DNA of 26,735 nucleotides from positions 1 through 26,735 of the IMG/VR virus record IMGVR_UViG_3300036046_000030, one strand, 5' to 3'. A program made the translations under genes and the position numbers. This document shows positions 9,068 to 18,870 of this stretch, one piece after another. The DNA is from a virus. The notes beneath the pieces were generated by a model. The model saw only the letters and a list, made by a program, of their open reading frames with translations. It made no database searches and was not told the origin of the DNA. How positions within the stretch are numbered: position 1 is the first letter of the stretch; each line of letters opens with the position of its first letter.

Positions 9068-9916
9068 TCAGGCGTCCTTGCAGTGCGGATCGTCGGGGAA
9101 CTCAGGTGCCAGCTTGATGGCGGGGTCCGCTTCCGTCCGCAGGGGTACAGCATCGGCGCCCAGGACGGCACGCTCGTTCGACAGGTCGCGGTGCTTGTCG
9201 CCCTCGACGCTGAAGCCGGCGTCCCCGTGGCGGCTGCGCAGCTTGGCGATGTTGCGGCGCATCTCGGCGAAGAACGAAGTGCTGGCCCACTTGACCAGAC
9301 GCGCGAGGTACCACAGCACGTCGCCGATCTCCTCCCGCACGTTGACCACATCCGGGCGCTCGTTGTTCAGGTACTTGATGGCGATCTCCGCCATCTCGCC
9401 CGACTCCGTGGCGACGCCGATGATCCCGTGAAGCAGGTCCAAGTCCTCCTTGGACCAGTGGCCGTCCGTCAGTACCAGGCCGGCGACGTTGTCGGGAAGC
9501 GCAGGTAGACCGGGGATCTCACCAGCCGCACGGTTGCGGCCGCGGAACAGTGCCTTCTTGAACAGGTCCAGCTTCTCAGCTGCTTCAGCAAAGGTAACGA
9601 AAGCCCTCCGCAGCTCGTCGCGCGTCACCTGATGCCGCCCGTCCATGTTGGAAGCGGTCAGCTCCGTCTCGGCGACGTAGTCGAACGCCGCTTCCTCCTC
9701 CGCCGCGCGCTGCTCGGGACCGTCCAGATCGAAAATCATGTCGTTGGCGAACAGGACCGCGCGCTGCCCGAAGAGCTGTTCGCGTTCCGCCTCGGTGTGC
9801 GACTGAACAGGGTGCTTGACGCGGTTGCCTTCTCGATCCATATAGGCTTCAGGAAGGATGTAGTTTTGCATCCGCCCTTGCATTCGGCGGAAGTGCTGAA
9901 GGAGCAGCAAGCTCAT
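9068..9916 (-). CDS. MazG-like nucleoside triphosphate pyrophosphohydrolase
   Basis: A 282-residue protein whose C-terminal half has the all-alpha NTP pyrophosphatase pattern: ATESGEMAEIAI (Glu171, Glu174) and NVREEIGDVLWYLARL (Glu196, Asp199), the ExxE...ExxD metal site, then FFAEMRRNIAKLRSRHGD. The N-terminal 150 residues are an extra region absent from minimal MazG proteins. MazG enzymes hydrolyse (d)NTPs to monophosphates; phage versions are thought to adjust nucleotide pools or alarmone levels, the latter disputed. GATGAGGATACC precedes the ATG. It has its own promoter (9951-9979). Confidence 0.88.
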   Translation of the reverse strand: MSLLLLQHFRRMQGRMQNYILPEAYMDREGNRVKHPVQSHTEAEREQLFGQRAVLFANDMIFDLDGPEQRAAEEEAAFDYVAETELTASNMDGRHQVTRDELRRAFVTFAEAAEKLDLFKKALFRGRNRAAGEIPGLPALPDNVAGLVLTDGHWSKEDLDLLHGIIGVATESGEMAEIAIKYLNNERPDVVNVREEIGDVLWYLARLVKWASTSFFAEMRRNIAKLRSRHGDAGFSVEGDKHRDLSNERAVLGADAVPLRTEADPAIKLAPEFPDDPHCKDA

Positions 9917-9950
9917 GGTATCCTCATCAAAGGGTCAAACTGATGTTTGG

Positions 9951-9979
9951 AGCTTAGCGAAGCGCTACAGGGCCGGCAA
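9951..9979 (-). promoter_or_regulatory. Promoter, TTGCCG-N17-TAAGCT
   Basis: Minus strand TTGCCG (9979-9974), 17-base spacer, TAAGCT (9956-9951), about 35 bases before the MazG-like start codon. GGGGCTTGCCGGC at the -35 side is shared with the promoter at 9028-9056. Confidence 0.68.
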
Positions 9980-10000
9980 GCCCCTTAATGCACACCGATG

Positions 10001-12637
10001 TCAGCGCTCCGACTGCGCATCGTAATCCGGGATCTCCAGAATGCGATACCCCTGTCCGTGGAACCCGTACCCCTCGACCAGCTTGTCGGACTTGACGGGC
10101 ATAAGGTGACCGTTGTCGACGCACTGGCGCAGGGTATCGTCGAGCGCCTTGGCCAGGCCGAGCTTGTAGTTATAGAACGCCGCCTGCTGCTGGACACGCA
10201 TCTGGAGGTAGTGACGCGGGACAATGTGGTTAGCGCGCATCCGCTCGTCCACCTTGTACGACTTGGGAATCTCACCCTTCCGGTCACGGAAGTCACGGAT
10301 GATGTGCATGAGCTTCTTCTGACGCGCCAGATCGCCCGTACCGACGTCGCCGGTGTTGAGGCGGTTGCGCATCATTTCGATGTCACGTCGCACAAGCTGG
10401 ATCGCCCAGTTGATATGCTCGGGCTTGATCACAGGGAAGTTGAAGTTATCGCCGACCGCCAGCAGTGCTGCCACCCGAAGGGCCTTCAGCACAGCACGGT
10501 TCCACATCTGGCGCCGTGACTCGTCGTCCGTCTTGCGAATCTGCGCGTTAGCTTCCTGGCTGAACGCGGTGATGATCGCTGCGGCTTCCTCCGTCCGCTT
10601 GACAAGCTGGCTATCATTGGCAGCGATCAAGCGGTGCGCCTGTGCTGCCATGTGGACGAGGTAGTCGCGCAGCGCATCGTCGGGCGTGCTAACGATAGCG
10701 TGGTTCTCGTCAGGTCTGTCCCCGTCGTACCCGACGATCAGGAAACGCGACAGGAACCCGTCCTCCATCATGCTCTCAGTGAGCGACTCGTAGAAGGTGC
10801 CGGGTGTCGTCTCACCGATCATGCTGTACGCTACACCGGCGACCGATGCGACGTTGTTTTCAGCGCTCGAGTAGCTGATGCCCCCTGCGATACTGGTCGG
10901 ACCTGACTTCTGGTACAGGTTCGTCATCTGCGTGCGCAGGGTCTGAAGCGGTCCGTCGCGCCCGTCCTCGGTTGCGATCCGTTTAAGGCGACGTCCCCAC
11001 TCACCGCTCACGTTCACGAACGACTGCGCAGCTAGGCAAGCCTTCACCAGTGCGGGTCCTGATGCGTACTCATTGAAGTCTACGAAGTTCGTGAAAGGTC
11101 CGTACGATTGGAGGCAAGCGTTGACCACGGTGCTGATGCCGTCGTGCATCGCCTCCTTACCGATGGCCGACCGTGCCACAAGGATGATATACAGGTTCAA
11201 GCCTGACTTCGGAATGTGCCAGGCCTTGCCGCAGATCCCTGCCATCAGGCCAAGCGCTGCGACGACCGACACCTCCTTGATGGGAAGCCAGCTGTTCGAG
11301 TACATGAAGCGCGCAAGCGCGCCCACGAACCCAGGCGGCCATGGCAGACCCTTTTCCCCTGCCGCTTGCACCTCAGCGCTTACGGGCGCCATCTGTGCTA
11401 GCTCAGCGTCTAGCTGGGGCATGGGTTCAGCGGGGTTCCCCTGCCCTTCCACCTGTAGCGGTGTGATGACGCGCGGCTGTTGGACGCCAAACGGCGTCTG
11501 GATCATTGCCTCAGCTGGCGCACCGCCCTGGATGCGTTCGATCTCCGCTCGCGCACCCCGCTCAGCGTCTTCAGCAGCGCGCAGAATCGCGCTGAACTCG
11601 ACGTTCGTTTCCCGCTCTTGACGCTCGCGGATGGTCTTGAGCGTGTAGTTGAGGTAACGATCGTTCTTGGTCGCTTTCTCACGCTTCCCTAGCGCGCTAT
11701 CGCGGAACATGCGTCGGCACTGCGCATTGGACAGGCTGTAGAAGCACAGCATGGACATGAGCGACAGGTCAGCTTCCGACTGCGAAGGGTACCCCTGCTC
11801 GGCCCACTTCCCATGCCACAGCGCGAGGAACTTGTCTGAGTTCGCAGCGGTGGCGGCGACCTGGAAGACGTACCAGTCGTCAGCCTCAGGCGGTATCTCT
11901 TCAAGGATAACCTCTTTCGCCATGGGCCGCATTTGCGAGACCATGTTGCGCAGCATGATCTCGCGGTCCATGACCGGCTTATCCTTCCACACATCGCCTG
12001 TGCAGATGATAAACCGCTCCTGGCTGTACACCTCAATCCCACCGCGACGGAAGCCCCGCCCGATCTTGCCGAGGATCCAGATGTGCAGACCCTTACCGCT
12101 GCGCGAGCGCTCGGTGTAGCTGTCGTAATGATGGACGATGTTCGTGTAGAGCTGGAAGTCGTCCGGCGTCGTCCACACTTCGGGCTTGCCGGGATGCGTG
12201 CTGGCATCCTTGACGTCCAGGTCGATACAGCTGACAGGGTCCGATTCGGTGATGCAGAACCCGATGTCAAATCCCTTCTTGACGATGCGCACACCGTCCT
12301 TGATGTGTGTGGTCACCGTGTCCCGATTGTCCCATGCCGCCTGACACGCTTGCGTGAACGTCATCCACTCGCTCGGGCGGGTGACAGCGACATTCCGCAG
12401 CTTGCCGTTCGGGCCAAGCGCCATCGGCGCTTTGTCAGCACCGGCGACGGCCCACTGTGGCAGTTCGCGCAGCACCTCAGGCAACCGCGTCCACTTTGAC
12501 GGGTCTCCACTATAGGCGTTGATCGAGGTCTCCACTACAGCGGGGAGACCGGTCACCACTACACCGCCCGGCACCGATGTATCCACTACACCGGTCACCA
12601 CTACAGGCTGACCCTCGTATCCACTATCGCCCCTCAT
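10001..12637 (-). CDS. PrimPol-helicase fusion (NrS-1-like primase/polymerase with DUF3987-type ATPase)
   Basis: An 878-residue replication protein. The N-terminal PrimPol domain shows CIDLDVKD (Asp139, Asp141), SRSGKGLHIW (His185) and VYSQERFIICTGD, the three catalytic regions of archaeo-eukaryotic primase-polymerases. The segment from SEADLSLMSML to about 340 fits the helical domain after PrimPol in NrS-1-type enzymes. A linker (350-430) leads to an ATPase-like domain with ILVARSAIGKE (about 486-495), a Walker A variant in which Glu replaces Ser/Thr, and GETTPGTFYESL. It likely unwinds and primes, and may also polymerise, phage DNA. The first 36 residues (VVVTG and VVDTS units) are encoded by the CCACTAYA repeats. 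The ATG overlaps the HTH gene stop (ATGA). Confidence 0.88.
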   Translation of the reverse strand: MRGDSGYEGQPVVVTGVVDTSVPGGVVVTGLPAVVETSINAYSGDPSKWTRLPEVLRELPQWAVAGADKAPMALGPNGKLRNVAVTRPSEWMTFTQACQAAWDNRDTVTTHIKDGVRIVKKGFDIGFCITESDPVSCIDLDVKDASTHPGKPEVWTTPDDFQLYTNIVHHYDSYTERSRSGKGLHIWILGKIGRGFRRGGIEVYSQERFIICTGDVWKDKPVMDREIMLRNMVSQMRPMAKEVILEEIPPEADDWYVFQVAATAANSDKFLALWHGKWAEQGYPSQSEADLSLMSMLCFYSLSNAQCRRMFRDSALGKREKATKNDRYLNYTLKTIRERQERETNVEFSAILRAAEDAERGARAEIERIQGGAPAEAMIQTPFGVQQPRVITPLQVEGQGNPAEPMPQLDAELAQMAPVSAEVQAAGEKGLPWPPGFVGALARFMYSNSWLPIKEVSVVAALGLMAGICGKAWHIPKSGLNLYIILVARSAIGKEAMHDGISTVVNACLQSYGPFTNFVDFNEYASGPALVKACLAAQSFVNVSGEWGRRLKRIATEDGRDGPLQTLRTQMTNLYQKSGPTSIAGGISYSSAENNVASVAGVAYSMIGETTPGTFYESLTESMMEDGFLSRFLIVGYDGDRPDENHAIVSTPDDALRDYLVHMAAQAHRLIAANDSQLVKRTEEAAAIITAFSQEANAQIRKTDDESRRQMWNRAVLKALRVAALLAVGDNFNFPVIKPEHINWAIQLVRRDIEMMRNRLNTGDVGTGDLARQKKLMHIIRDFRDRKGEIPKSYKVDERMRANHIVPRHYLQMRVQQQAAFYNYKLGLAKALDDTLRQCVDNGHLMPVKSDKLVEGYGFHGQGYRILEIPDYDAQSER
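12507..12628 (+). repeat. Iteron-like cluster CCACTAYA x6 inside the PrimPol gene
   Basis: The 8-base motif CCACTACA, or CCACTATA/CCACTATC, starts at 12507, 12532, 12556, 12583, 12598 and 12621, all in the same orientation and usually preceded by TC, TCA or TAT. The spacing is irregular (15-27 bases). The cluster covers codons 4-44 of the PrimPol-helicase gene. The same motif forms a second cluster at 15668-15773. It suggests binding sites for an initiator or repressor. Confidence 0.85.
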
Positions 12638-13107: not shown

Positions 13108-13620
13108 ATGACCACGCAAACGAACTTTGCCGACATGGGTAAGTCGGAACTCCGCGCCGCCTGCAAGGCCGCCGGGATGACGGGCTACTCCAAGCTGAGC
13201 GTCGGCGACATGCGCGCTGAGCTGCAGAAGGCGGCCGACACCATCTACGGTTTCGAAGCCCACGGCCTCGCGCACTGCCCGCACTGCGACGTCCACCTGA
13301 GCAACGGCGTCGGGGACGGCGAAAAGACGGTGTACGGCTGCCTGGGGTGCGGTGAGGACTTCGGCCCCACCAAGTCGAAGCAGGCCGACCGCCACTCCGG
13401 CACGGGTCTGAAGATCGAAAAGGACCGTCCCGAGCGCAACGGCATCAAGCGCCCGTCGGTCGGCGGCAAGTGCCGCGCGATCTGGGACTTCCTGGACGGT
13501 GTGGTGGCCAAGGGCGAGCAGCCCACCGCCAAGCTGGTCCGCGCCCAGGCCGAGACCGCCGGCTGGAACGCCAACAACGCGGTCATCGAGTTCTACCAGT
13601 GGAGGAAGTTCAACGCCTGA
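13108..13620 (+). CDS. SAP domain/zinc ribbon DNA-binding protein
   Basis: A 170-residue protein in three parts. Residues about 8-42 (MGKSELRAACKAAGMTGYSK then LSVGDMRAEL) are a SAP-like helix-extended-helix DNA-binding motif. Residues about 55-85 hold CPHC and CLGC pairs, a four-cysteine zinc ribbon. The C-terminal 50 residues (GGKCRAIWDFLDG to FYQWRKFNA) are a helical module resembling one seen at the C-terminus of other phage proteins. AAGGAAG lies before the ATG at 13108. It is the first rightward gene next to the PrimPol promoter, so it may be an abundant DNA-binding or host-control protein (inference). Confidence 0.85.
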   Translation: MTTQTNFADMGKSELRAACKAAGMTGYSKLSVGDMRAELQKAADTIYGFEAHGLAHCPHCDVHLSNGVGDGEKTVYGCLGCGEDFGPTKSKQADRHSGTGLKIEKDRPERNGIKRPSVGGKCRAIWDFLDGVVAKGEQPTAKLVRAQAETAGWNANNAVIEFYQWRKFNA

Positions 13621-13646
13621 GGTCAACAACCAGAAACGCACCGGGG

Positions 13647-13671
13647 GCCGGCAGGGGAACACCTTGCCGGC
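13647..13671 (+). terminator. Hairpin after the SAP gene (weak terminator candidate)
   Basis: GCCGGCA (13647-13653) pairs perfectly with TGCCGGC (13665-13671) about 27 bases after the stop codon, with an 11-base loop. The sequence after it (TTCCGCG) has no real T-tract, so termination would be weak or need a factor. Confidence 0.4.
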
Positions 13672-13718
13672 TTCCGCGTGACTGAATCTGTAGCAGTGCC
13701 TGTTACAGTATCGAGAGT

Positions 13719-13746
13719 GCAAATAGTTCGAGACAGGTGCATTTTT
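13719..13746 (+). promoter_or_regulatory. Dyad element upstream of a rightward promoter (copy 2)
   Basis: Starts GCAAATAGTTCGAG and ends GTGCATTTTT, four bases before the -35 box at 13751. It shares TAGTTCGAG and the TGCRTTTTT end with the copy at 16265-16294. Confidence 0.65.
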
Positions 13747-13750
13747 GATG

Positions 13751-13779
13751 TTGCATCCAGTTTCGAACTGTCGGAGTAT
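13751..13779 (+). promoter_or_regulatory. Promoter, TTGCAT-N17-GAGTAT
   Basis: TTGCAT (13751-13756), 17 bases, GAGTAT (13774-13779), 25 bases before the ATG at 13804. The GAGTAT -10 box is the same as at 16322-16327. Confidence 0.62.
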
Positions 13780-13803
13780 GGGCGCATCACAAGGAGCTAC
13801 CCC

Positions 13804-14586: not shown

Positions 14587-15300
14587 TCACCTAGCGTCGC
14601 GCAGCACCCGCTCAGCTTCAGCAATCTGCAAGGCCCAGTGCTCGCGCTGGGCCTTGCGCACGTCTGCGCGGCGCAGCATTTCCTGATGCGCTTCCTTGAC
14701 CCATGCGTCGATCTGCTCCAGCTCCGCGTTCCGAGCGGCCTTGAGCGCAGCTAGGTTCTCGGTAGCCGCCCGCACAGCGGCAGTGCCAGCCGGTTCGCGC
14801 ACAGGTACCCCGTCACCCGTCCCTGCGGCTACAGCCGCCCCGCTGTCGCCCGTAGCGGGTACCTCACCCGCCTGGGCCTTCTTGCGCTCCCTGTGACGGT
14901 TGACGCGCTCCTTGTTGAGCCGCTTCTGACGTGCTTCCCAGGACTCGTTCGGGTTGACCACACAGCGGTTCGCTGCGACCAGTGCATCGGCACAGCGCGC
15001 ACCTGCTTCAGCTAGCAGGTCGCACAAGCGCTTGGGCTGCTGACCGTGGAGGTAGCCAGCTTGCATGGCGAGGTCCGGCAGCGTGGGGCAGGGGTGAGCG
15101 GGTAGGTCACGCGGCCACCAGTCACAGGCGCGCCAGTAGTCGAGGAGCATGTTGTCGTCGACGAACCAGTTTAGGTCCGGCAGGTGCAGAAGGTTGTTCT
15201 GGACTGCACTGGCGTTGATCAGTGCGGTGTACTGCTGCATCTCAGCAGGTGTGACGGTAGGGTCGAGCAGACGCTCGCGTAGCGCGTGGATTTGTGACAT
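14587..15300 (-). CDS. Unknown basic and coiled-coil protein beside the repeat region
   Basis: A 237-residue protein transcribed leftward between rightward units. The N-terminal half is a folded domain rich in W, L and C. The middle has a very basic stretch, EARQKRLNKERVNRHRERKK, then an A/G/V-rich linker, and the C-terminal 60 residues are a charged helix likely to form a coiled coil. The basic stretch suggests nucleic-acid binding. The gene starts next to the CCATTACA/CCACTAYA repeats, so it could be a repressor or initiator that binds them; this is inference from position. ATG at 15300 chosen because the promoter at 15339-15367 lies before it and an earlier ATG at 15378 precedes that promoter. 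The ribosome binding site is weak. Confidence 0.78.
   Translation of the reverse strand: MSQIHALRERLLDPTVTPAEMQQYTALINASAVQNNLLHLPDLNWFVDDNMLLDYWRACDWWPRDLPAHPCPTLPDLAMQAGYLHGQQPKRLCDLLAEAGARCADALVAANRCVVNPNESWEARQKRLNKERVNRHRERKKAQAGEVPATGDSGAAVAAGTGDGVPVREPAGTAAVRAATENLAALKAARNAELEQIDAWVKEAHQEMLRRADVRKAQREHWALQIAEAERVLRDAR
14628..14657. other. Perfect 11-bp inverted repeat within the 237-residue gene
   Basis: GCAAGGCCCAG (14628-14638) and CTGGGCCTTGC (14647-14657) are exact inverted copies with an eight-base loop. They lie about 70 bases beyond the end of the convergent rightward unit, inside the 3' part of the leftward gene. No T-tract follows on either strand, so it could be a factor-aided stop for the rightward transcript or chance in a high-GC gene. 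Confidence 0.4.
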
Positions 15301-16617: not shown

Positions 16618-17022
16618 ATGTGCGCCATCTTTGACCAGCTCACCCGCGCCCTGTCCCAGCAAGGGTCGACGCTCGACCTCGGGTGCGACCCCGGCGACCG
16701 CACCGTGCGAGCCCGGGTCATGGACGCCGAGTGCAATGAACTGTTCGCTGCCGAGGTGACCTTCAGAGTCGCCCGGTGGCTTACCCGTGACGCCGTCCGC
16801 ATCATGTGGAACGAGGACGACGCCAACCTCGAGGAGTGGGACGACGTGCTGCTCCGCGCAATCGAGTCGGGCGTCGCTACCCTGAAGCAGCCCGAGCGGC
16901 CCGTGCTCAGGCACGCGCACCCCGCGATCACCCTTCAGCAGGCTATCGACCTGCTGAAGTGCCACACGGGCAAGCGCCGCGTCACGGTGTCGATCGACGG
17001 TATCGACTGGTCGGTAGCGTAA
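16618..17022 (+). CDS. Unknown 134-residue protein
   Basis: ATG at 16618 with GGAGCTACCCCT before it. The protein is mixed alpha/beta and acidic (WNEDDANLEEWDDVLL) with a basic C-terminal part (HTGKRRVTVSIDGIDWSVA). No catalytic motif was recognised. It follows the 74-residue gene by 32 bases and is ended by a hairpin with T-tract at 17045-17083, so the two form one unit. Confidence 0.8.
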   Translation: MCAIFDQLTRALSQQGSTLDLGCDPGDRTVRARVMDAECNELFAAEVTFRVARWLTRDAVRIMWNEDDANLEEWDDVLLRAIESGVATLKQPERPVLRHAHPAITLQQAIDLLKCHTGKRRVTVSIDGIDWSVA

Positions 17023-17044
17023 CGCAACTCACATCGAACTGATC

Positions 17045-17083
17045 GGAGGCGGCCCTTATATCGAGGGTCGACCTCCTCTTTTC
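17045..17083 (+). terminator. Intrinsic terminator candidate
   Basis: GGAGG (17045-17049) pairs with CCTCC (17072-17076); inside, CCCT near 17053 can pair with AGGG near 17064. TCTTTT follows at once (17077-17082). This is the only hairpin in the window with a clear T-tract, 22 bases after the stop of the 134-residue gene. Confidence 0.65.
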
Positions 17084-17236
17084 GTATCGATCGGCCGGCA
17101 TCCGCGCAAAAATCCAGCACTCACTTCAAATCACTCGTTCTAAAATACACACAGTCCGTAGCCGGAATCTAACATCTGTTGTCTTCACCGCCTCGGTATA
17201 GTCGTCAACACATCGTCATCGCTGTGCATTTTCTAC

Positions 17237-17265
17237 TTGCACGCCACCGCGCGGCCGCGTAGGTA
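17237..17265 (+). promoter_or_regulatory. Promoter of the candidate noncoding RNA, TTGCAC-N17-TAGGTA
   Basis: TTGCAC (17237-17242), 17 bases, TAGGTA (17260-17265), with GTGCATTTTC before the -35 box as at other members. No gene with protein-like sequence begins within the next 500 bases, and the next gene has its own promoter. Transcription would start near 17272. Confidence 0.6.
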
Positions 17266-17271
17266 AGCGGT

Positions 17272-17770
17272 GGGCCCTGCGGCTCCGAGCGCGCATCCAG
17301 TAGGATTGAAAGCGGTGGATCCAGCCGTAAGGGACTTCGGGGCCAGGCCCAGGGAAGACCACCCTAAATCCTGGACGCAACGAGTGAACTAACCGAACGG
17401 GAGCGAAAGCTGAAGTTCAATCAAGCTGAGGGTCGGTCCGCGGAAGGGGTTCGCTCCTATACCGGCACTGCCCCAACGCCACGCGGTCCCCTTGGAGGTG
17501 CTTTCGGGCACTGCAGACGATGGGCACATGAACCGAAGTCGTCTGGCCGCACCATGCGTATCGCAACGGATGCCCTCCCCGGTGGGGCGGGATCACATCG
17601 GCAGTCGTGCGCAGCCGCCCGTCGTTGAGCTTCGGCTCCGGCGGGTGGCACCTTAAGCATCTTCGCACCTGTGTCGGCAGGTGTGGTCATCCCGACAGAT
17701 GGCACTGTGCGCGAGTTCGCTGGCGCATGGCACCGCACCGGCTCCGCGACTGTGTCGGGAGTCGGTGCAT
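17272..17770 (+). ncRNA. Candidate structured noncoding RNA of about 500 bases
   Basis: Between the promoter at 17237-17265 and the next at 17788-17816 there is no convincing reading frame, but there is a run of hairpins. (a) CCAGG/CCTGG (17343-17347, 17370-17374) enclosing AGGG/CCCT. (b) TGAACT/AGTTCA (17385-17390, 17414-17419) enclosing AGC-GAAA-GCT with a GNRA tetraloop. (c) CAGACGA/TCGTCTG (17514-17520, 17539-17545). (d) GCCGCCCG/CGGGTGGC (17614-17621, 17642-17649) enclosing GAGC-TTCG-GCTC with a UUCG tetraloop. (e) CACCTG/CAGGTG (17666-17671, 17678-17683). I could not match it to a known RNA class, and the 3' end is not defined. Confidence 0.5.
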
Positions 17771-17787
17771 TTGCTCTGAACTTTCGC

Positions 17788-17816
17788 TTGCATTCGGCAC
17801 CATTCGTTCCTAAGGT
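17788..17816 (+). promoter_or_regulatory. Promoter of the small-gene block, TTGCAT-N17-TAAGGT
   Basis: TTGCAT (17788-17793), 17 bases, TAAGGT (17811-17816), 30 bases before the ATG at 17847. A GTGCATTTGC tract lies upstream. One of the best members of the family; it drives the first series of overlapping small genes. Confidence 0.7.
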
Positions 17817-17846
17817 CGGTGCATCTACAGCGCAAAGGAGGCACCG

Positions 17847-18011
17847 ATGGCGCGGATACTGGCACTGCTCGAGGGTGAGTGCGTCGAGATCGAGCACCAT
17901 GCCGAGGCCGAGTTCTGGCTTCGCGGCAATCACTACTGCATCGTTGGCGATCCCGAGCGCGGGTCGTTTGACGAATCGGCTTTCGACGAGATCCTGGAGG
18001 TGGAAGGGTGA
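17847..18011 (+). CDS. Unknown 54-residue acidic protein
   Basis: ATG at 17847 with the strong ribosome binding site AAAGGAGGCACCG. The product, MARILALLEGECVEIEHHAE and on to EILEVEG, is strongly acidic. It opens the small-gene block and overlaps the next gene by GTGA. Function unknown. Confidence 0.78.
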   Translation: MARILALLEGECVEIEHHAEAEFWLRGNHYCIVGDPERGSFDESAFDEILEVEG

Positions 18012-18496
18012 CTTACGTCATCAAACCGGTCGTTCCCATCAGCGACAGGGTGGCTTGCCGGGTGCAAGAGCTCCAGATCGCCGGCGAAACGCCGAGCCAC
18101 ATCCTCTTTTCGCCCGAAGGGTACTCGAAAGCTCGCTTGGAAGCCGAGGCGCTGCTGAGATTCGGCGGCGTTGGCGAGTATGCGGTTGGCACTGCGCCGA
18201 TGGAGTACATGGGCATTCCCTACAGCATCGGGCGTCTGCCGCCTAACACCGACGATCCTGACTTCGTGGTCGATACGAAGGAGGCGGAAGCGCGGCGCAG
18301 ACCACCGCCTCCGACCGATCTTCAGCTGGCCAACCGGTTTCTCGAGATGCTCATGAGCGGTCTTGACGACTGGCTGCCGTATGCTGAGCGTGAGCTGTCG
18401 CGCGACAAGGCGATGGCCACGACGGTCGCCGAGATTCGCATCGGTGATCGGAACTATCGCGTCACTGTCGAAACCCTCGAAAGGGAACCCATCTGA
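18008..18496 (+). CDS. Unknown 162-residue protein
   Basis: Begins with the GTG at 18008 that overlaps the previous stop. Mixed alpha/beta protein with a charged central segment TKEAEARRRPPPPTDLQ and a C-terminal strand pair (AEIRIGDRNYRVTVETLE). No known motif. The stop overlaps the next ATG (TGATG). Confidence 0.8.
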   Translation: MTYVIKPVVPISDRVACRVQELQIAGETPSHILFSPEGYSKARLEAEALLRFGGVGEYAVGTAPMEYMGIPYSIGRLPPNTDDPDFVVDTKEAEARRRPPPPTDLQLANRFLEMLMSGLDDWLPYAERELSRDKAMATTVAEIRIGDRNYRVTVETLEREPI

Positions 18497-18870
18497 TGTT
18501 TGACAGACAACAGATCATTCGAATCTTGCAAAGAGGGTTTGTCGCCGAACGAAGCCGCATTCACGGCGGCGGATTCTATGTCGTGGCGCTTGATGGGACA
18601 CGGGACGGCATATTCTACACCGACCCCGATGATGCTGAAGAGCATCTCGCAGGGCTACGGGCGGATGCAATCCTGAACTTGGGAAGAATCAGTCCGTCTG
18701 AGGACCTGCTTACCAACGATGAAGCCGCCAACATCCTCGGAATCCGTCCGAATACACTCGAAATCTGGCGGCATAAGGGGAAGGGTCCCAAGTACATCAA
18801 ACTTGGGACAGGGAAAAGCTCGCCCATTCGCTATCGCCGCACTGACATTCAGGTTTGGATGAATCAATGA
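18496..18870 (+). CDS. Protein with C-terminal excisionase-like HTH
   Basis: A 124-residue DNA-binding protein. Residues 1-65 are an unknown domain (FYVVALDGTRDGIFYTDPDD). From about 71 on, LLTNDEAANILGIRPNTLEI, WRHKGKGPKYIKLG and IRYRRTDIQVWM form the typical HTH_17/excisionase winged helix. Such proteins act as repressors or recombination directionality factors; no integrase is seen in the window, so a regulatory role is more likely. ATG overlaps the preceding stop, and its own stop overlaps the next ATG (ATGA). Confidence 0.85.
   Translation: MFDRQQIIRILQRGFVAERSRIHGGGFYVVALDGTRDGIFYTDPDDAEEHLAGLRADAILNLGRISPSEDLLTNDEAANILGIRPNTLEIWRHKGKGPKYIKLGTGKSSPIRYRRTDIQVWMNQ

Follow-up and report, generated by a model that had tools for sequence, protein, structure and literature searches.

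Few phages are known in which the host polymerase is controlled by RNA alone. The put RNAs of HK022 are ~70 nt long and consist of two stem-loops (PMC9378689). ROOL and GOLLD have no known protein partner (PMC12286853). The RNA family described here resembles HK022 put in its setting: a phage RNA lying between the promoter of a presumed early block and a terminator with genes behind it, and not bound to a particular gene. It differs in its pseudoknot core and its length (~230–560 nt), and the size and two stem-loops of put are not matched. The position fits; the promoters are only predicted, terminators are not in excess and antitermination by the family RNA is hypothetical. Like ROOL and GOLLD, the RNA is large, structured and phage-encoded, but it is smaller, has a different core and no Rfam match, and comes without tRNA genes (neither tRNA nor tmRNA was found by ARAGORN in the loci scanned). 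With preQ1 riboswitches it shares an H-type pseudoknot in a possible leader, in phages making 7-deazaguanines. Its knot is larger, again without Rfam match, and the downstream genes lie outside that pathway.

The DNA analysed, called the window throughout, is the whole stretch of 26,735 nt from IMG/VR record IMGVR_UViG_3300036046_000030. The record comprises 26.7 kb without a second contig and represents a genome fragment from a Queuovirinae-like phage. Its primase/helicase (10001–12637, minus strand) shares 62% identity with its counterpart in Sphingomonas phage MMDA13 and 54–58% with those of Nipunavirus phages. Genes run mainly leftward to the left of ~15.4 kb and mainly rightward to the right of ~16.2 kb. 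A gene-free stretch (17022–17847) follows two small rightward ORFs and a terminator at 17045–17082. A protein search with the upstream gene (16618–17022) found no relatives, and DNA similarity searches with the window gave nothing useful. Separately, a 124-aa ORF at 18496–18870 (plus strand) had an excisionase/HTH-like match (phrog_66, E 1.6e-6), and strong folding was seen at two other stretches of the window, 13601–13800 (plus strand, z −4.6) and 15101–15300 (minus strand, z −3.9).

An original prediction, made from the sequence alone, had claimed a noncoding RNA of ~500 bases and no known class at 17237–17770, with a phage-type promoter, strong hairpins and no gene. The absence of a gene held: two tested ORFs overlapping this segment had no PHROG match. 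At the same place in deposited relatives, either nothing is annotated or there are small ORFs that disagree between records. The elements of the RNA unit outside its core were as follows.

17045–17082, plus strand: terminator of the upstream gene and boundary of the RNA unit (hairpin and T run, −23.1 kcal/mol, z −4.1)
17237–17265, plus strand: candidate promoter TTGCAC-17-TAGGTA, weak by consensus, aligning with TTGCGA-17-TATAAG of MMDA13
~17272–17770, plus strand: RNA gene, approximate extent, from promoter, terminal hairpin and the homologous unit in relatives
17275–17333, plus strand: 5' domain closed by P1, with P1 formed by CCCUGCGGCU (17275–17284) with AGCCGU (17323–17328) and AGGG (17330–17333)
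17402–17411, plus strand: GAAA-capped hairpin AGC-GAAA-GCU, read from sequence, 3 bp only and weak alone
17615–17648, plus strand: UUCG-capped hairpin, from folding
17666–17683, plus strand: hairpin CACCUG-UGUCGG-CAGGUG, from folding, at a place corresponding to a group A hairpin
17735–17775, plus strand: terminal hairpin (17735–17768) and T-containing tail, a probable terminator (−27.8 kcal/mol, z −6.1; scan match)

The predicted stems, including the UUCG- and GAAA-capped ones, were thus present. P1 was read from sequence and a constrained fold was compatible with it; in relatives, the 3' strand of P1 precedes the core. The whole 525 nt folded only modestly better than shuffled sequences (z −2.0). 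The folding signal was concentrated at 17601–17800, with z −4.6 on the plus strand and −1.8 on the minus strand.

The promoter claim held in part. By direct count, 17237–17265 matches the consensus at 5 of 12 positions and was not reported by a 9/12 scan. The site at the same place in MMDA13 is better. The candidate gains credibility from its alignment with this site and from a Nipunavirus counterpart (TTGTGC-17-TATAGT). The claim that the next gene has its own promoter also held only partly: the candidate TTGCAT-17-TAAGGT (17788–17816) is weak too (6/12), and in several relatives the RNA ends directly before a start codon. Since sites with an 8/12 match are present in a quarter of random 165-nt windows, promoters were not counted as independent evidence.

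The first lead was a weak blast match of the window (E 0.11), from which MMDA13 and related viral contigs were reached. MMDA13 has a 1186-bp gene-free region at the same place. In print, this gap is merely a non-coding region containing a 12-bp repeat (PMC7472734); the repeats overlap predicted CtrA sites (PMC9437464). GTTAACC repeats adjoin the RNA in the gap (L002, ~9850–10020). Segments of viral contigs L009/L018 and L017 were 74–80% identical to that of MMDA13. L009/L018 also has, at ~3325–3272 on the minus strand, a second, weak match to the beginning of this segment (promoter and first bases of the MMDA13 RNA). The RNAalifold consensus of group A (MMDA13, L009 and L017) had 161 pairs, 37 of them changed on both sides. 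A profile of these three sequences gave weak matches on the expected strand in other relatives, including Pseudomonas phage NP1. The NP1 match falls inside a stretch without annotated gene that is common to 19 phage records.

In the core shared by the members, GAC is followed by an H-type pseudoknot that helices S1 and S2 form, with ACCAnAUAAU in its loop, and CGnAA comes next. The members come from Queuovirinae-like phages whose hosts are Pseudomonas, Xanthomonas, Variovorax, Acinetobacter and Sphingomonas. The RNA lies in a gene-free stretch upstream of the primase/helicase and on the opposite strand, and the window conforms to this. Nipunavirus RNAs are 228–369 nt long, with a near-invariant core and a middle domain that is exchangeable or missing. 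In the deposited genomes (L003, L040–L049), inconsistent small ORFs are annotated over this domain. The RNA of Variovorax phage VPv62 (L046) lacks it and, at 228 nt, is the shortest measured member. The core of Acinetobacter phage HD01 is also the same, but with wholly different S2 letters (GAUAGUU/AACUAUC). A terminal hairpin was found in several lineages but not all; the window has one.

Support for the core came from an essentially ungapped alignment of 11 sequences that was not fitted to the structure. In S1 and S2 together, 91.7% of cells were paired, compared with 64.9±3.0% in shuffled and 30–42% in slid controls. Covariation was 0.729, compared with 0.203 (shuffled) and at most 0.21 (slid), and in S2 all seven family pairs were changed on both sides. 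Without the window, 17 sequences gave 89.3% paired cells versus 60.0% and a covariation of 0.731 versus 0.181. Paired cells count sequences and not events; the slid controls answer the objection of relatedness.

Model searches recovered members that had not been used to build the model. Built from 10 sequences that excluded the window, one model detected unseen members at E-values of 4.6e-12, 1.2e-10, 6.4e-10 and 3.3e-8, and an 11-sequence model added L155 and L099. The members found in this way are L016, L022, L030, L050, L031, L155 and L099, with L135 found weakly. Wherever a model-found member had the primase in its locus, the RNA lay upstream of it and on the opposite strand. The core model R1 had no match in Seurat (a Queuovirinae phage), Iggy or PSTCR4. 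Most matches from pattern scans of public contigs were due to chance, and L081–L084 were unconvincing with R1. L144/L160, whose core-like site is correctly placed but weak (E ~0.7–1), were not included in the family.

No match was found in Rfam 15, including the ROOL, GOLLD, 6S, RNase P, tmRNA and preQ1 models. DNA searches with the MMDA13 and NP1 segments matched only themselves or Nipunavirus-like phages. The literature searched, which did not cover most subscription journals, held no description of the family. We consider it very likely that this structured, pseudoknot-cored RNA family is new and previously unrecognised. That it works as RNA, at transcript level, we also regard as very likely, although this is inferred and no expression data exist. 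The original prediction had named covariation in relatives and an Rfam comparison (ROOL, GOLLD, 6S, RNase P) as checks. Both were run: strong compensatory change at the syntenic place and the Rfam null result support its ~500-base noncoding RNA of no known class.

The window copy is the most divergent member. Its core was placed as follows.

17331–17393, plus strand: core, with S1, S2 and the knot loop, then ACGCAA and UGAACUAAC
17335–17357, plus strand: helix S1, CUUC/GAAG (17335–17338 with 17354–17357) and GGG/CCC (17339–17341 with 17348–17350)
17343–17374, plus strand: pseudoknot helix S2, CCAGG (17343–17347) with CCUGG (17370–17374), in the alignment columns of all members
17358–17369, plus strand: knot loop L3, ACCACCCUAAAU, corresponding to ACCAnAUAAU of the relatives
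17375–17393, plus strand: ACGCAA and UGAACUAAC after the core, with the spacing of MMDA13 and L009

In the register of the family, all four outer S1 pairs and five consecutive S2 pairs of seven could form. The outer S1 pairs covary across the family, with CUUC/GAAG in the window versus CUCC/GGAG, CACC/GGUG, CUG/CAG, CAG/CUG, CUA/UAG and CAU/AUG elsewhere.

Covariance models R2 and R3, both built without the window, missed this copy. The case for its membership is therefore made by profile, descriptor, position and pairing. Built from groups A and B alone and extended to UGAACUAAC, the profile ranked 17331 top in the window with 8.0 bits; the runner-up on either strand had −1.1. This score was reached at ~6 unrelated positions in 3.8 million. 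The descriptor, which required GAC, the outer S1 pairs, at least five consecutive S2 pairs and the invariant letters in exact register, had 17331 as its sole site in the window and ~2 independent unrelated sites in 3.85 Mb. It was written after the window core was known and is not a blind test. As profile, descriptor, UGAACUAAC spacing, position and strand agree, the window RNA is very likely a divergent family member.

Our main reading, with a probability of roughly 0.5, is that the window carries an RNA gene of a new family that exerts cis-acting control, as nascent RNA, over transcription into the early operon. This function is inferred. The RNA sits at or near the head of a gene block diverging from the replication genes; that the downstream genes are early is inferred from their position and was not measured. 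The nascent RNA would fold the knot as the host RNA polymerase leaves the promoter. Whether polymerase then reads through the next terminator and reaches the early genes would depend on the folded knot, which would work like a put-type antiterminator or an attenuating leader. Action in cis rather than in trans is itself an inference, and taken alone we would put it slightly below an even chance.

The layout downstream of the RNA varies. A terminator lies ~26 nt before the next start codon in NP1, a T-tailed hairpin ~25 nt before it in HD01, and an ORF begins just after the RNA in L097, L155 and L135. The downstream gene differs between the close relatives JG054 and NP1 while the RNA is retained, a pattern consistent with an element independent of the gene. 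Predicted terminators were not in excess in the early blocks of NP1 and the window, so that antitermination is less needed. MMDA13, and perhaps the window too, has another promoter region between the RNA and the next gene, which suits a stand-alone RNA better.

A stand-alone, trans-acting RNA is the strongest rival, nearly as likely as action in cis and somewhat less than an even chance. It would be transcribed early as a separate unit, bounded by a promoter and a terminator of its own, and would bind RNA polymerase, ribosome, a nuclease or mRNAs as its target in host or phage, broadly resembling the large ornate phage RNAs. In its favour, several lineages have the unit flanked by a promoter-like site and a strong terminal hairpin, and the next gene of MMDA13 is ~300 nt further on, with separate promoters. 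Moreover, the RNA is large and structured, its peripheral domains are exchangeable and its neighbouring genes are not conserved. Against it, the RNA directly abuts the start codon in Nipunavirus, HD01 and several metagenomic members. Nor does any protein encoded near the primase track the RNA: the best cluster in a co-occurrence search for a cognate protein there was present in 5 of 16 RNA-positive loci, and none was general.

A second rival accepts the family as real and takes the stretch in the window for a structured but unrelated gap in the same position. The failure of R2 and R3 and the marginal blast similarity (E 0.11) speak for it. We find it unlikely, as profile and descriptor both choose 17331, S1 and S2 pair in register, UGAACUAAC stands at family spacing, and the position and strand are those of the family.

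A ligand-sensing leader (riboswitch), for instance for 7-deazaguanine precursors used in DNA modification, would fit an H-type pseudoknot followed by a terminator before genes, and NP1, MMDA13 and HD01 encode 7-deazaguanine synthesis genes. It is very improbable: the preQ1 families of Rfam gave no match, the downstream genes are unrelated to this pathway, and Seurat, of the Queuovirinae, has no core-model match. A DNA-level element merely resembling RNA (a replication origin or packaging site) would suit the location by a divergent intergenic region and the dense structure, but is also very unlikely given the G-U pairs among the compensated pairs, the folding signal limited to one strand, the strand-specific promoter and terminator and an orientation relative to the operon that is always the same.

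What is new is the RNA family and not any demonstrated mechanism. Annotation had treated the RNA as empty space or as spurious small genes in sequenced phages, including the P. aeruginosa phages NP1, PaMx25, JG012 and JG054. The family sits in the presumed early (takeover) region of a widespread phage group. An extension of the main reading, no more than possible, is a class of pseudoknot RNAs that would command host transcription of phage early genes without a protein; its scope might, equally tentatively, take in phages of alpha-, beta- and gammaproteobacteria. Isolated members make the function directly testable, namely NP1 or PaMx25 in laboratory P. aeruginosa and MMDA13 in Sphingomonas.

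A long-range helix between GACCACA in the knot loop and UGUGGUC in the 3' domain was initially convincing in HD01, MMDA13 and the window. It was dropped because TGTGGTYA is repeated genome-wide and the loop reads GACGACA in L099, L153 and L110. Across these phage genomes TGTGGTYA is ~7–20 times above expectation. The window holds 17 copies of TGTGGT(C/T)A versus ~1.1 expected, and MMDA13 and NP1 hold 21 each, dispersed on both strands. Sites in the window include 932+, 1785−, 2878+, 7470+, 12308+, 15800+, 17682+, 20082+ and 26181+. Seurat (15), Iggy (18) and PSTCR4 (16) carry mostly TGTGGTTA. The loci concerned, besides the window, are L002, L003, L004, L007, L009, L014, L078, L079 and L080. 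The octamer might, speculatively, be a site of replication, recombination, nicking or packaging. Its spacing was more even than random (gap CV 0.41–0.72, mean 1.1–1.6 kb), and it was the top-ranked 8-mer in several of these loci.
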